Both the position numbers and the translations under genes were made by a program. A stretch of 12,936 bases of DNA from Deltaproteobacteria bacterium. Lineage in GTDB: Bacteria > Desulfobacterota > Desulfobacteria > Desulfobacterales > SURF-15. The DNA is taken from assembly GCA_024644775.1 (NCBI GenBank), contig JAHEHB010000125.1, positions 1-12,936 of the forward strand, read 5' to 3'. Positions 218 through 6,253 of the stretch are shown here, piece after piece (position 1 is the first letter of the stretch; the number at the start of each line of letters is the position of its first letter). Below the pieces are notes generated by a model that saw only the letters and a program-made list of their open reading frames with translations, searched no databases and was not told the DNA's origin.

Positions 218-634
218 TTAATTTTTCAGCGCTCCCTTCTCCCGGAATCGTTTAAGTTCAGCAGAGAGCCACTTTGCTGTTGAAATTTCCTGATTCCCAC
301 ATCGGACCCAATATTGTTGACCGCTTATACTGCTTTTGCTGGCAATGTACTTGATAAAGTCATCCGCCGTCTGTACCCTTTCCCTGGCATAGTCATACTT
401 CCGCCGAAGATGTTGACCGGCCTTTTTGGCATCATACGCGTTATCATTTCGTATAAACACACAGTCCGAATTTTCGATATATTTTATTAAGTGAAGGATT
501 TCCCCACGGGGTTCTGCCTGAACATCATAAGCTGTAAGTGCAATTAAACCCGTTAGAGATAGAATTAGGGCGCTACGAATATTCGCGGGGAAATGCACTG
601 TAAGCACCATGTTATTACTTTCTTTTTTATGCAT
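218..634 (-). CDS. DUF5329 family secreted protein
   Basis: This 138-aa protein matches the DUF5329 pattern by recognition: an EILxLIKYIENSDCVFIRN block (residues 45-63), HLRRKY (75-80), the ASKSSISGQQY segment (98-108), Cys112 and a C-terminal WL..ELKRFR helix. Residues 15-40 form a signal peptide ending VQA-EP, so the mature protein of about 98 residues should be exported. Cys58 and Cys112 could form a disulfide. The function of the family is not known to me. The gene starts 20 bases after the ion-channel stop codon, on the same strand, and is probably co-transcribed with it. The start is uncertain: neither Met1 nor Met9 has a clear ribosome site, and Met9 still leaves a complete signal peptide. 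Confidence 0.8.
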   Translation of the reverse strand: MHKKESNNMVLTVHFPANIRSALILSLTGLIALTAYDVQAEPRGEILHLIKYIENSDCVFIRNDNAYDAKKAGQHLRRKYDYARERVQTADDFIKYIASKSSISGQQYWVRCGNQEISTAKWLSAELKRFREKGALKN

Positions 635-654: not shown

Positions 655-2619
655 CTATAAATTAAGAAAAAGAAAAGCTAAAATAACCAATCCAACTACG
701 AAAACAGACGGATATCCCCAGAGCGTGAATTTATCTGCCCGTGTGACTATTTTGTTCCTGCCGGAAGCATCCATCCGTTTTAAGATAACGTTGCAGACCA
801 CCGTCAAGGCAGTAACGACAAAGCCAAGAATAACGATTGTGTCTAAAAATGTTAAATATCCCAACCGTGGCAGATCCGATCCGATGGCAAAATTAAAAGC
901 GACAAATGTCAGCAGATTGGCAGTGGAAACGTCGACACGCTTGCTGTAATCCTTCATAAAGAAGGTGACCCAGGACACGACAATAATCAAGATCATGGGC
1001 AGAAAAAGGCGAAAGAAATAGTAGCTCAGATGCCGTTTGGCTAACATTCGGAAATTGAACTGCGAGTTTAGCCTTCCCAGACCGGGGTTAAATTTGCTGA
1101 CATAGGTATCGAAGGTTGTGATGCGCCATTCCTCCTCTCCCAATTGTTCACCGACTTTGTTGACCTCCGGGTGTACGGTGTACACATAGAAATCATCTCG
1201 TTGAATGGATACAAGACGAATATAAAACTTTTGAATATCAAAAGGAAATTTACGGAAATCAAAATCCGGAGCCTGCAATGTCATCGTAAATCGCTCAAAA
1301 TAAGTCACTTCACCGTTGGGGCGAACGTTAAAAATTTCCTGCTGAGTCCATCGTTTGCCCTGCTGATTGTAGAAAATAAAATCCGGCCATAAAACCCCTT
1401 TTTCTCCGACAAGTTGCTCAAATCGTGATCTGTTAAAAACTTTTAGCCGGCACTTGCAACTATCCGGGTTGAAAACAAATTCACTGTCCACCCACTTTAA
1501 AAAAAGGTTTCCCACAATGGTAAAATTTTCTGCTTTCTGATCGATGCTGCTAATCTGGTCCAACTGTATACCCACTTGGACCTCTATTGGTTCCCGGACC
1601 AGGGGACGTCCCCTTGATTCGGCTTTTCCCGTGGAGACCCCAGGCGTATTTAGCCCAACCAGCAGCCGAAAGCCGCCGGTGGTCATACGATCCCCCTCGC
1701 CAACGCCCTCAAGACGCAAAGAGGCATTGGGACTTTTCTCCTTGAAAGTATGTTGCAACACAGCGGAACTTTTTTTGCCGTCGACATTATCGAATCCGAG
1801 AATTCGGCCCCCAAAATCGCGTAATTTGAGTGAAGGTTTCAAATCACCGGATGTGGCTTCCACAAATACGTAAAGCGTCTCCCATGGATCAAATCTCACC
1901 AGTTCGAAAGTCATTTCACTTTTGTCACGTGTTAAATTATCGGTGATTTCCTGCACTCTCTGGTGAAAATCCATCGCCGGTTTGGCAATCTGACTGTCAG
2001 TAGACTCAACCTGGCCTGTTAAGATCTCTGGAGTGTTCAACCCCAGGACAAGACGATAGCGCCCGAAAGTGGCATGGCTTTTCTCCTGATCTGACGAAAG
2101 ATACCCACCGGCTACGATCAATTTGTAGTCACCGGGGGTCTCGACAGGAAGTGTCAGGACAGCATTGTTCCATTTTCCACCGTCGTTATTCCAGGCAAGG
2201 AAAACCTTATCGGCAAAATCCGGAAAGGCCGCGAGAAAATCCTGCCCGGCATCCATCTTGGGAAGGACTTGTTCTCTGAATGCCCTTTCAAATGATGCAA
2301 AATCAAATGCATCGTCCGCCAACGCAACGACCGGATCCAAGTTTCCCGAAACCGCTTCGAGATAAAAATAAAGCGTATCACCTTTTTTGAGATTCGAAAG
2401 CTCGTAGAAATGAAATTCTTCCGGTTCCAGGTGTTTCGTCAACACTTGCACATCACGAGCCTTGTCAACACCGAAGGCCATGGAAGGCAAAGTAAGAATA
2501 AGCGCGCTTAAGATGATTCCAATTTCAATGATCGTGCGGCAGTGTTTGGATGATATTTGTAAATTTAAAGTTCTAATATTTCTATCAGATAGAACTGTCT
2601 TTATGGTTTGTAAAATCAT
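655..2619 (-). CDS. Pentameric ligand-gated ion channel with two N-terminal domains (DeCLIC-like)
   Basis: The 654-aa protein has a signal peptide (about 28-50, ending MAFG) and two related N-terminal domains (about 56-200 and 225-335). These share TLYFYLEAVSGNLDP/TLYVFVEATSGDLKP and YRLVLGLNTP/FRLLVGLNTP. A Cys-loop-receptor extracellular domain follows (about 340-530), then four membrane helices: M1 533-555, M2 560-582, M3 586-612, M4 632-653. The signature loop APDFDFRKFPFDIQ (450-463) keeps the central proline but lacks the two cysteines, as in prokaryotic members. AFNFAIGSDLPRLGY at the end of M2 aligns without gaps to the GLIC AFN...LP region. The double N-terminal domain is the architecture of DeCLIC from Desulfofustis, whose gating responds to calcium. 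The protein should form an inner-membrane homopentamer with a large periplasmic part; its ligand is unknown. The start has a GAAGGTG ribosome site 4 bases before ATG. Confidence 0.92.
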   Translation of the reverse strand: MILQTIKTVLSDRNIRTLNLQISSKHCRTIIEIGIILSALILTLPSMAFGVDKARDVQVLTKHLEPEEFHFYELSNLKKGDTLYFYLEAVSGNLDPVVALADDAFDFASFERAFREQVLPKMDAGQDFLAAFPDFADKVFLAWNNDGGKWNNAVLTLPVETPGDYKLIVAGGYLSSDQEKSHATFGRYRLVLGLNTPEILTGQVESTDSQIAKPAMDFHQRVQEITDNLTRDKSEMTFELVRFDPWETLYVFVEATSGDLKPSLKLRDFGGRILGFDNVDGKKSSAVLQHTFKEKSPNASLRLEGVGEGDRMTTGGFRLLVGLNTPGVSTGKAESRGRPLVREPIEVQVGIQLDQISSIDQKAENFTIVGNLFLKWVDSEFVFNPDSCKCRLKVFNRSRFEQLVGEKGVLWPDFIFYNQQGKRWTQQEIFNVRPNGEVTYFERFTMTLQAPDFDFRKFPFDIQKFYIRLVSIQRDDFYVYTVHPEVNKVGEQLGEEEWRITTFDTYVSKFNPGLGRLNSQFNFRMLAKRHLSYYFFRLFLPMILIIVVSWVTFFMKDYSKRVDVSTANLLTFVAFNFAIGSDLPRLGYLTFLDTIVILGFVVTALTVVCNVILKRMDASGRNKIVTRADKFTLWGYPSVFVVGLVILAFLFLNL

Positions 2620-3061: not shown

Positions 3062-4912
3062 GTGGCTAAAAAATTAAAATTACTCATAGGCTTGATAATT
3101 GTCGTTTTTGTTGGCCTGTCCGGTTTTTTTGTCGGCTTAAAGGTAAACCAGACTGCATCCGCTGACAAAAAGGATCTTATCGCTTCAAATGAACCTGTTA
3201 AAACGGAAACACCCGCAACCAATAAATCGGCTTTATCAACCGTGAAATCGCCTTCCCGATCAGAGCAGAAACAGGATACCGTTGATAAGGGGGAGTCGTC
3301 GCAAACGAATGATGAGGCTTCATTTGCACTTTTAGATCGGTATAATAAGCCGTTTAAGGGCGATCTTAAACAAATCCGAAAAAGAAGAATTTTGCGGGTG
3401 TTAGTCAGCCACAGCAAGAGCAACTTTTTTATCGATAATGGAAGACCTCTTGGCTTCGAATATGACATGCTAAGCGATTACAGTAAATTCCTAAATAAAT
3501 CCGCAAAAAACAAATACGATGAAACAAAAATGGTATTTATCCCCGTACCTTTTGATCAACTTTTAACGGACCTGCAAAAGGGCAAGGGGGATATCGCCGC
3601 GGCAGGGCTTACCATCACACCGGAACGGCAACAGATCGTTCAATTTACAAATCCGTATATTCAGAACGTAAATGAAGTAGTGGTACTAAAGCGAAGCATA
3701 AAAGACGTACAAACAATCGATGATCTTTCGGATCGAACGGTATATGTTCGGCCGGGAAGCAGTTACGTAACGCATCTTAAGGTTTTAAATAAAAATTTCG
3801 AAAAAGCAAAGAAGAAACCCATTAAGATCGTCACGGCCGATAACACGCTGGCAACAGAAGATATTTTAGAGCTCGTTAATGCGGGGATTGTCGATATCAC
3901 CGTCGCAGACCAGCACATAGCCGAGGCGTGGGCTCAAATGCTTTCAAACATCGTTATTAAAAAAGATTTCAGGATTCACTCGGGCGGAGGCATCGCCTGG
4001 GCGGTTCGAAAAAACAATCCTCAGCTCCTGTCCAGCCTGAACACCTTTACGAAAAAGATCAAGATAGGCTCATTGGTCGGTAATGTTTTGTTCAAACGTT
4101 ACTACAAAGACTCAAAATGGATCAAAAATCCCGTTACCGTAAAAGAGCAGCAGAAATTGGAAAATTTCATATCGCTTTTTGAAAAATATGCTGATCGCTA
4201 CGGGTTTGATTGGCTTGCCGTCGCCGCACAAGCCTATCAGGAATCAGGTTTGGATCAATCAAAGAAAAGTCCTGCAGGCGCCGTCGGAATCATGCAGGTA
4301 CTGCCAAGCACTGCGGCTGATAAGTCGGTAAATATAAGAAAAATCCACGTCATCGATAATAACATCCATGCCGGTGTGAAGTATTTAAATTATGTACGAG
4401 AAAAATATTTTAACGACCCCGAAATCAGTCCGACAGACAGGGTCTATTTTGCCTGGGCCGCCTATAATGCAGGACCCAACAAAATAAACACCCTTCGCAA
4501 AAAAGCGGCGAAAAGAGGCTTTGATCCGAACCAATGGTTTTCCCATGTGGAAAAAATCGCCTCTGAGGTTATCGGTAGAGAAACCGTCGAGTATGTGGCA
4601 AATATCAATAAATACTACATCGCGTATAAACTGCAGCACGGAACCTATGAAAAACGCAGGGAGAAACTGGAAGCCGCCGGTCTTTCTGAAAGACCCGTTG
4701 TAAAGACTAGTACCGGGAAAAACGTCAAAAAAACAGCTCCAAAGACTGTTAAAAAGAAATCCGGTGTACGGTACCATACGGTCCGTTCCGGTGAGACATT
4801 GTACAGTATCAGCCGCCGCTATGGGATTTCTGTTGATAAAATAGCCCGCCTGAATAAACTTAGTAGTAAAAAAGTCATTCACCCAGGCACGAAGCTCCGA
4901 GTGAGTAATTAG
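3062..4912 (+). CDS. MltF-like membrane-bound lytic murein transglycosylase with C-terminal LysM
   Basis: The 616-aa enzyme should cleave the MurNAc-GlcNAc bond of peptidoglycan, leaving 1,6-anhydro-MurNAc. In order it has: an uncleaved-looking membrane anchor (about 5-26, no lipobox Cys), a charged linker to about 100, a family-3 solute-binding-like domain (about 108-350, with LGFEYDML and GDIAAAGLTITPER), and an SLT catalytic domain (about 368-520). The SLT domain carries the presumed catalytic Glu394 in QAYQESGLD, then GAVGIMQVLPSTA and AAYNAGPNKI. A Lys-rich linker leads to one LysM module (about 571-614, YHTVRSGETLYSISRRYGIS) that binds glycan chains. E. coli MltF has the first two domains but no LysM. 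It starts at GTG with AGGGAG eight bases upstream. The gene is divergent from the channel unit and appears to be transcribed alone. Its third positions are far less GC-rich than those of vapBC downstream. Confidence 0.93.
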   Translation: MAKKLKLLIGLIIVVFVGLSGFFVGLKVNQTASADKKDLIASNEPVKTETPATNKSALSTVKSPSRSEQKQDTVDKGESSQTNDEASFALLDRYNKPFKGDLKQIRKRRILRVLVSHSKSNFFIDNGRPLGFEYDMLSDYSKFLNKSAKNKYDETKMVFIPVPFDQLLTDLQKGKGDIAAAGLTITPERQQIVQFTNPYIQNVNEVVVLKRSIKDVQTIDDLSDRTVYVRPGSSYVTHLKVLNKNFEKAKKKPIKIVTADNTLATEDILELVNAGIVDITVADQHIAEAWAQMLSNIVIKKDFRIHSGGGIAWAVRKNNPQLLSSLNTFTKKIKIGSLVGNVLFKRYYKDSKWIKNPVTVKEQQKLENFISLFEKYADRYGFDWLAVAAQAYQESGLDQSKKSPAGAVGIMQVLPSTAADKSVNIRKIHVIDNNIHAGVKYLNYVREKYFNDPEISPTDRVYFAWAAYNAGPNKINTLRKKAAKRGFDPNQWFSHVEKIASEVIGRETVEYVANINKYYIAYKLQHGTYEKRREKLEAAGLSERPVVKTSTGKNVKKTAPKTVKKKSGVRYHTVRSGETLYSISRRYGISVDKIARLNKLSSKKVIHPGTKLRVSN

Positions 4913-5215: not shown

Positions 5216-5219
5216 ATGA
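5189..5219. promoter_or_regulatory. Tandem palindromic operator candidate for VapB
   Basis: TGATGCATCA (5189-5198) is a perfect 10-bp palindrome lying between the -35 and -10 boxes. TGATGCATGA (5210-5219, 9 of 10 identical) covers the predicted transcription start and the ATG. The copies are 21 bp apart, about two helical turns, so two RHH dimers could bind the same DNA face. RHH antitoxins commonly repress their own operon from such repeats. Confidence 0.6.
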
Positions 5220-5455
5220 GAACAACCATACGAATAAATGACGATCTCCTGAAACAGGCTAAAAAACACGCGGCGGAAGAAGGGCGCACCCTGACATCAC
5301 TAGTCGAAGATGGCTTAGCGTTCATCCTGACCAAACCGAAAACGTCCCGCCGTAAACGGATTGATTTGCCGATATCCAAAGCCACTGGCGGGGTCCTTCC
5401 AGGGATTGACCTGAACCGGTCCAGTGACCTGGAGGAGGTCATGAACGCGCCGTGA
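5216..5455 (+). CDS. vapB: Ribbon-helix-helix antitoxin, VapB type
   Basis: This 79-aa protein opens with a ribbon-helix-helix DNA-binding fold: strand RTTIRI (2-7), then two helices over about 8-38 (DDLLKQAKKHAAEEG and SLVEDGLAFIL). The polar tail (about 40-79) is the part expected to wrap and inhibit VapC. Its TGA overlaps the vapC GTG start (GTGA), so the pair is translationally coupled. The ATG at 5216 is chosen because the RHH strand begins immediately after it; there is no ribosome site, which fits the leaderless-promoter reading. It likely represses its own operon through the tandem TGATGCAT sites. Confidence 0.87.
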   Translation: MRTTIRINDDLLKQAKKHAAEEGRTLTSLVEDGLAFILTKPKTSRRKRIDLPISKATGGVLPGIDLNRSSDLEEVMNAP

Positions 5456-5877
5456 TCCTTCCCGACGTCAACATTCTCGTCCACGCGTTCCGCGCGGATT
5501 CCTCCGACCATAGGACCTGCCGGAGCTGGCTCGACGGCGTGGTCAACGGCGAAGCGCGTTACGGTTTGGCCCCCCAGGTCCTGAGCGGTGTGATCCGTAT
5601 CACCACCCACCCGAAAGTTTTTGCGGTGCCAAGCAGCCTGGACGAAGTGCTCCGGTTCTGTGACATCCTGCTGGATCAACCCCATTGCGTGGTCATACAA
5701 CCGGGCGAGCGGCACTGGGAGATTTTCAAACGCCTTTGCATCGAAGCGGACGCCCGTGGCAACTTGGTGCCCGACGCATGGCTTGCGGCACTGGCCATCG
5801 AGTCCGGCTGTGAGTGGATTACTCTTGATCGCGACTATTCTAGGTTCTCGGGCCTTCGATGGCGTGTGCCGATGTAA
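5452..5877 (+). CDS. vapC: PIN-domain toxin ribonuclease, VapC type
   Basis: This 141-aa PIN-domain protein has acidic residues in the expected metal site: Asp5 in the opening LPDVNILVHAF, Asp108 in VPDAWLAALAIESG, and Asp126/Asp128 in ITLDRDYSRF. The mid-domain acidic position often found before FLRI-type motifs is Ser45 here (VLSGVIRITTHP). This resembles the actinobacterial-style PIN subfamily, so activity is not excluded. VapC toxins cut tRNA or rRNA with Mg2+ when freed from VapB. It starts at GTG overlapping the vapB stop. The first 52 codons end in G or C in 43 cases (83%), against 13 of the first 30 codons in the upstream transglycosylase gene, which points to recent acquisition. The end (GLRWRVPM) is full length for the family. 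Confidence 0.9.
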   Translation: MILPDVNILVHAFRADSSDHRTCRSWLDGVVNGEARYGLAPQVLSGVIRITTHPKVFAVPSSLDEVLRFCDILLDQPHCVVIQPGERHWEIFKRLCIEADARGNLVPDAWLAALAIESGCEWITLDRDYSRFSGLRWRVPM

Positions 5878-5982: not shown

Positions 5983-6253
5983 AAAACAGAAAAAAATAAT
6001 CCTCGATGAATACGAAAAAGAAATCATAGAGGCTTACGAAAATGGGAGATTAAAACCCTCGAAATCGCAGACTGATTTCCAAAAAATCGCTAGAAACACA
6101 CTAAAAAAGAACCGCAAGATCAATATAAGAATTTCAGAAAATGACCTTTCCGCCCTACAAAGAAGAGCGGCACGGGAAGGCATCCCCTATCAGACACTGA
6201 TAGGAAGTGTGCTGCACAAATATGCCAGTGGCTTTTTAAAAGACGCAGTATAA
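5975..6253 (+). CDS. CopG/RHH-type antitoxin (PF12441-like), toxin partner broken
   Basis: The 92-aa protein has a Lys/Glu-rich helix (1-45), then KINIRIS (48-54) as the RHH strand, and the very recognisable GIPYQTLIGSVLHKYASG end (69-86) of the CopG_antitoxin family. The antitoxin normally binds and neutralises a small RNase toxin encoded immediately upstream and represses the operon. The ATG at 5975 is chosen over an in-frame longer frame that begins inside vapC because it has TTGGAGGTG five bases away. Its expected toxin survives only as an overlapping C-terminal remnant, so this gene is probably an orphan antitoxin. Third codon positions are AT-richer than in vapBC, closer to the resident genes. 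Confidence 0.88.
   Translation: MTKKQKKIILDEYEKEIIEAYENGRLKPSKSQTDFQKIARNTLKKNRKINIRISENDLSALQRRAAREGIPYQTLIGSVLHKYASGFLKDAV

Follow-up and report, generated by a model that had tools for sequence, protein, structure and literature searches.

A DeCLIC-type ligand-gated ion channel subunit with the normal pore of its family in a Desulfobacterales bacterium

Introduction

Does a bacterial channel with an arginine at 0' and an aspartate at 2' of its pore-lining helix M2 represent a natural variant, or does it follow the rule of its family? This question is raised by a gene on contig JAHEHB010000125.1 of a Deltaproteobacteria bacterium (assembly GCA_024644775.1; Desulfobacterota, Desulfobacterales, SURF-15), of which the whole stretch of 12,936 nucleotides was analysed and is called the window here. 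The initial annotation, made from the sequence alone, placed at 655..2619 a DeCLIC-like ligand-gated channel with two homologous N-terminal domains (NTDs) in tandem, and considered it a variant of a small group with an unusual pore and possibly different ion selectivity. The follow-up presented here supports the first part of this description and leads to another view of the pore, which is the normal pore of the family. As far as sequence comparison can tell, the window channel probably, with a probability of about 0.88, belongs as an ordinary member to the DeCLIC-type branch of prokaryotic pentameric ligand-gated ion channels, and would be a calcium-closed, cation-selective pentamer.

Results

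Domain organization and structural matches

The coordinates given initially are correct, and the gene is on the minus strand, where an uninterrupted open reading frame (ORF) of 654 amino acids (aa) extends from the ATG at 2619-2617 to the stop codon at 655-657 (Table 1). Frame 1 of the plus strand contains many stops over the same interval, and a frame or strand problem at the channel gene is excluded by the intact minus-strand ORF. In Pfam, the Neur_chan_LBD family (PF02931) matches residues 337-503 with 54.1 bits (cut-off 26), and Neur_chan_memb (PF02932) reaches 23.0 bits, under its cut-off of 28.1. Four transmembrane helices, including M2, are found in the predicted model and are backed by the PDB matches. 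The protein is a bacterial relative of human nerve-receptor channels. The profiles of NTD1 (about residues 55-200) and NTD2 (212-332) were aligned by hhalign with a probability of 99.85 and an E value of 6.6e-30 over 106 columns, indicating that the two domains are homologous, and the control alignment of NTD1 with the ligand-binding domain gave a probability of 0.07. The NTD1 of DeCLIC is described as a jelly-roll whose betaD-betaE loop carries inserted helices (PMC12664993). In the leader of the window channel, segments 1-5, 7-23 and 44-53 have a predicted local distance difference test score (pLDDT) below 50 in the model, and the hydrophobic stretch at about 32-48 looks like a signal peptide.

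The nearest solved structure by sequence is DeCLIC 6v4a (E 1.2e-125, residues 55-646), followed by sTeLIC and GLIC, both over the core only, and the nearest by predicted fold is DeCLIC 9ev1. The NTDs match the DeCLIC fold: the Foldseek alignment to 9ev1_A covers 603 columns and the VIA alignment to 6v4a_D spans model residues 55-652, in which channel parts outside residues 219-654 have few alignment rows and NTD1 rests on DeCLIC rows. Collectively, these data bear out the description as a DeCLIC-like channel with tandem homologous NTDs. The predicted model, a monomer, aligns to DeCLIC and has the core fold of GLIC.

The ligand-binding domain contains a C-x-C motif, which is usual in two-NTD relatives: it occurs in 119 of the 120 relatives listed below, and cysteine is found at each of the two positions in 148 of 159 two-NTD proteins. 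In two DeCLIC papers, a search of the main text for the terms 'disulfide' and 'cysteine' gave 0 matches. A tie between the motif and the presence of NTDs is ruled out by P0124 (339 aa) and P0126 (334 aa), which lack NTDs and carry the motif.

Table 1. Features of the channel gene, its neighbours and an NTD-less relative (window coordinates unless another contig is named)
Feature	Position	Strand	Basis
Whole gene, DeCLIC-type pentameric ligand-gated ion channel subunit, 654 aa	655..2619	-	ORF, Pfam, PDB sequence and fold matches
N-terminal leader, residues 1-50; hydrophobic stretch about 32-48	2470..2619	-	Sequence; model helix 25-43
NTD1, residues 55-200, beta-rich; inserted helices 107-117, 119-123, 128-139	2020..2457	-	Model, hhalign, structure comparison
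NTD2, residues 212-332, beta-rich, homologous to NTD1	1624..1986	-	Model, hhalign, structure comparison
Ligand-binding (periplasmic) domain, residues 340-530, Pro-loop type	1030..1602	-	Pfam, PDB match, model
Transmembrane domain M1-M4, residues 531-653	661..1029	-	Four model helices 531-554, 558-580, 591-618, 622-653
C-x-C motif C388/C390, ligand-binding domain	1450..1458	-	Family alignment
M2 start and pore lining, residues 557-581: D557 -4', S559 -2', K560 -1', R561 0', D563 2', L570 9', F577 16'	877..951	-	Alignments
E364, opposite site 3 ligand E347 of DeCLIC	1528..1530	-	E in 116/120 listed relatives
Loop F Q492-E497 (QLGEEE), holds residues of DeCLIC calcium sites 3 and 4	1129..1146	-	Alignment and PMC12664993
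N145 and D146, opposite DeCLIC site 1 D123, D124	2182..2187	-	Alignment and PMC12664993
DUF5329 gene, 138 aa, 20 bp downstream of channel stop	218..634	-	ORF; PF17263 E 1.3e-30
MltF-like lytic transglycosylase with SBP_bac_3, SLT and LysM domains	3062-4912	+	Pfam; under the MltF model's curated cut-off
L001 NTD-less channel, 393 aa, Omnitrophota metagenome-assembled genome (MAG), JAJDBZ010000659.1	2449-3630	+	Pattern scan, alignment

The pore and its variation across the family

M2 was aligned by phmmer without gaps to the GLIC mutant chain 6hz3, which places S559, R561, D563, L570 and F577 opposite Glu, Asn, Thr, Ile and Ile, respectively. The alignment to DeCLIC is also ungapped and matches L570 and F577 with L554 and F561, the 9' and 16' residues of DeCLIC (PMC9897478). 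The M2 register and all residue numbers of the initial annotation are confirmed by the two alignments, and a shift that would bring an acid onto -2' is not seen, S559 sitting opposite the GLIC Glu. Asp557, an acidic residue at -4' just before those listed initially, had been overlooked. The gate and acidic-mouth residues of the DeCLIC type, namely L570, F577, D557 and D563, are all present.

Among 7999 scored candidates, 554 proteins were retrieved as relatives at E <= 0.001, a number hardly compatible with the small group proposed before. Per-position counts refer to the best 120 of these 554 (the listed relatives), 119 of which cover both NTDs, so the counts lean towards two-NTD proteins. 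Position -4' is occupied by D in 117, N in 2 and E in 1; -2' by G in 41, S in 31, A in 24, T in 14, V in 6, M in 2, L in 1 and another residue in 1; and -1' by K in 84, N in 25, R in 8, T in 2 and I in 1. Arg at 0' and Phe at 16' are found in 120/120 and Leu at 9' in 119 (F in 1), while 2' is D in 72, E in 20, S in 14, A in 8, M in 5 and N in 1, hence acidic in 92/120. All 120 carry an acid at -4' or 2', only one carries an acid at -2' or -1', and the set found most often is D/R/D at -4'/0'/2' (72/120).

When 65 proteins were added to the listed relatives, the resulting pool of 185 comprised 159 two-NTD proteins, 21 short proteins and five that were set aside (P0071, P0181, P0183, P0184 and P0185). 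An alignment of M2 across two-NTD channels, the check suggested with the initial annotation, gave Arg at 0' in 157 of the 159 (Gln in the other 2) and D or E at 2' in 131, so that the pore is not odd in this respect either. The 21 short proteins, of which P0121 is the L001 protein and P0122, P0123, P0128, P0135, P0161 and P0166, to judge from their first residues, appear to be fragments, all have R at 0' and D or E at 2'. In sTeLIC, D at -4', Lys at -1', R at 0' and D at 2' are found, and DeCLIC has D, Q and E at -4', 0' and 2'. The L001 channel shares the D/R/D set, and its M2 is identical to that of the window channel at 22/25 positions. Because the set occurs in sTeLIC and L001, which have no NTDs, the pore pattern does not depend on N-terminal domains being present. 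An unusual pore of the window channel is thus ruled out by the family counts, sTeLIC and L001. Its pore is the normal one of the family, from which DeCLIC departs by its Gln at 0'; among the listed relatives, Arg at 0' with acids at -4' (118/120) and 2' is the rule, and the odd-pore claim can be closed.

A departure from the commonest set is seen in 27/120 listed relatives, a two-NTD group (P0003, P0004, P0006, P0014, P0023 and 22 more among P0024-P0057) in which 2' is Ser, Ala or Met, Asp is kept at -4', and -1' is Asn in 25/27 and Thr in 2/27. The paired change looks as though the charges at -1' and 2' were coupled. These relatives are a natural experiment: comparison with the window channel or sTeLIC would show the ring that sets ion selectivity, a matter left for validation in DeCLIC by PMC9897478.

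Calcium sites

The calcium sites of DeCLIC were taken from PMC12664993, and their counterparts were located by alignment. All residues of site 3 (E347, P434, F436 and L477) are kept as E364, P451, F453 and L493, and those of site 4 (Q476, G478 and E480) correspond to Q492, G494 and E496. Since the site 3 residues are conserved, calcium closure through this site is likely, and the window channel likely shares its calcium dependence with DeCLIC there. At site 1, D76 and D124 are kept as D95 (2335-2337) and D146, and D123 is replaced by N145, as in 3/120 listed relatives (P0001, P0002 and P0085); Y129, a backbone carbonyl ligand, corresponds to N151. At site 2, G128 corresponds to W150, and Trp occurs there in 2/120. 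The site 1 triad D76/D123/D124, kept as D/E-D-D in 91/120 listed relatives, is therefore broken in the window channel (D95, N145, D146). The triad is no defining trait, so the membership in the DeCLIC type stands. Judged from these residues, site 1 appears altered and stabilisation of the NTDs by calcium is less sure.

Kinship and distribution

The nearest kin among the listed relatives are P0001 (91% identical) and P0002 (87%). In a FastTree phylogeny of the core, rooted by our own choice and calculated from 187 of 189 sequences, the window channel forms a group (support 0.995) with P0001, P0002 and the fragment P0122, and DeCLIC forms one with P0160 and P0171 (support 1.0). Both groups lie inside an 82-member clade (support 0.866) that excludes sTeLIC. 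Clades of 9, 14 and 43 members around the window channel have supports of 0.131, 0.671 and 0.535, and since NTD-less proteins are placed near the window channel at a support of 0.131, a loss of the NTDs is only a possibility.

A pattern scan of genome contigs gave 10 pattern matches and, from these, one relative. In the phylum search, 2/14 genomes had a match, the second of which is weak (E 5.8e-6, 22% identity) and has no PF02931 match. No relative was matched in plasmid and phage collections at the search sensitivity used. In viral contigs, either of two short peptide patterns picked out 28 stretches, none of which coded for a relative. A mobile-element home for the channel is thus unsupported by the plasmid, phage and viral collections.

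Genomic surroundings

The DUF5329 gene downstream is probably co-transcribed with the channel gene as its operon partner, and its product is probably periplasmic. Among the papers available for full-text search, none contains the term DUF5329. Upstream, divergent and 442 bases off, lies the MltF-like gene, which carries a periplasmic-binding-protein domain. Stand-alone binding proteins beside bacterial channels have been proposed to cooperate with them (PMC549065). Genes of the MltF type are, however, usual cell-wall genes, and nothing at the locus ties this protein to the channel.

A 103-aa ORF at 2616-2927 on the minus strand ends in a TGA that overlaps the channel ATG. Its codon score of 0.114 lies in the range spanned by nine genes of the window (0.083-0.169); since the opposite strand also holds an ORF (2694-2939) with a score of 0.094, this score does not decide. 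With no Pfam match at E <= 1 and no homologue, the 103-aa ORF was dropped as a gene. Farther away on the plus strand are an ORF resembling antitoxins (DUF6364 above its cut-off, VapB under its cut-off) with a PIN-domain protein at 5216-5877, and a CopG-type antitoxin stretch at 6044-6253. In the window, a tRNA search found none, and no Rfam family reached its gathering score.

Discussion

The comparisons establish the homology, the domain order, the M2 register and the conservation of the gate, acidic and site 3 residues. If the window channel works like DeCLIC, as we infer from homology, five copies would form a channel in the inner membrane, exposing both jelly-roll domains and the ligand-binding domain to the periplasm. 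A closed pore, shut at the rings L570 (9') and F577 (16'), would be favoured by calcium bound at the interface that is formed by the beta1-beta2 loop with E364 together with the Pro-loop and loop F of the neighbouring subunit. Calcium depletion, perhaps together with another ligand or pH, would open it. D557 and D563 at the cytoplasmic mouth would confer cation selectivity, as proposed for DeCLIC.

Some points weigh against this assignment. The predicted model is a monomer built from 27 aligned sequences, in which the NTD fold was compared within the whole chain, and it deviates strongly from full-length DeCLIC chains (root-mean-square deviation about 5 to 6 A), perhaps due to the NTD orientation. 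The authors of 2022 ask for a clear validation of the DeCLIC selectivity class (PMC9897478); as this class is drawn from acidic rings, a selectivity assigned by homology stands on thin experiment. Because Asn replaces Asp123 and Trp replaces Gly128, calcium may exert less control through the NTDs. Finally, in the cryo-electron microscopy structures of PMC12664993 the DeCLIC pore is closed even without calcium, and that paper regards the gating conditions as unsettled, while the PDB titles of 9fth and 9fti name open conformations at pH 5.

From Lys at -1', Arg at 0' and the lack of an acid at -2' or -1', one could propose a natural variant in which the pore has been rebuilt and the selectivity is altered (anionic or weak). 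K560 and R561 do both carry a basic side chain, and the Glu that cation channels have at -1' (PMC12637682, PMC549065) is missing, as is an acid at either position in nearly all listed relatives. DeCLIC was, however, classed as cation-selective on the basis of two acidic rings (PMC9897478), which appear to be D541 (-4') and E547 (2'), the counterparts of D557 and D563. The motifs of animal channels are E-[R/K] for cations and A-[R/K] for anions (PMC549065), and the ELIC filter is written as E -1' (PMC12637682), from which a basic residue at 0' would be usual in cation and anion channels alike, and Arg at 0' is therefore no argument against cations; the glycine receptor alpha subunit, printed with A at 0' (PMC10011588), is at odds with the E/A-[R/K] rule. 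The Pro-Ala motif of anion channels (PMC4055736) is not present in the window channel. Moreover, as D/R/D is the commonest set and is found with Lys at -1' in sTeLIC, an altered selectivity would have to hold family-wide. sTeLIC is cation-selective. With regard to selectivity, nothing in the sequence separates the window channel from its relatives, and the different selectivity suggested initially, now unsupported, seems very improbable.

The calcium sites invite a second alternative, tentative and rather doubtful, in which the NTDs bind calcium poorly at sites 1 and 2 and mainly site 3 of the ligand-binding domain senses it. The replacements at D123 and G128 are rare among the listed relatives, most of which keep the triad, in agreement with this possibility, whereas D95 and D146 are kept in the window channel, and Asn is able to ligate calcium. 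Furthermore, 3/6 of the named site 1 contacts of DeCLIC and all those of site 2 are backbone carbonyls (PMC12664993). A cooperation of the channel with the DUF5329 protein is unlikely, too. A shared strand, the 20 bp gap and the strong PF17263 match would fit such a partnership, and periplasmic binding proteins were proposed earlier as operon partners of bacterial channels (PMC549065), but the adjacency is known from one locus and the other channel genome searched, G001, has no DUF5329 (0/1). E. coli, which is among 14 control genomes, has DUF5329, and none of the 14 has a PF02931 match, so DUF5329 also exists apart from such a channel. More speculative still is the idea that the DUF5329 protein acts as a ligand or lid, forming a functional pair with a channel whose NTD calcium site is weakened; if true, DUF5329 would gain a functional link. 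The preferred reading remains that of an ordinary DeCLIC-type channel, whose special traits are modest, namely N145 as a side-chain ligand of the NTD1 calcium site and the adjoining DUF5329 gene.

Comparison with known channels

DeCLIC from Desulfofustis (PDB codes: 6v4a, 6v4s, 7q3g/h, 9ev1, 9ev7-9eva and 9ftg-9ftj) shares with the window channel the order NTD1-NTD2-extracellular domain (ECD)-transmembrane domain (TMD), with identities by domain of 29%/27%/42%/47%, as well as the 9' Leu/16' Phe gates, the acids at -4' and 2', the C-x-C motif, calcium site 3 and the loop F residues. The window channel differs from it in the pore, with Arg for Gln at 0', Asp for Glu at 2' and Lys for Arg at -1', and in the NTD1 calcium sites, with N145 for D123 and W150 for G128. 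Unlike the window channel, sTeLIC (PDB codes: 6fl9 and 9ex6) has neither N-terminal domains nor the C-x-C motif, and the L001 channel likewise lacks both NTDs and the motif. GLIC (PDB code 3eam and many others) has a common core ECD-TMD fold and an ungapped M2 alignment with the window channel, but is without NTDs and carries Glu and Asn at what we take to be its -2' and 0' positions.
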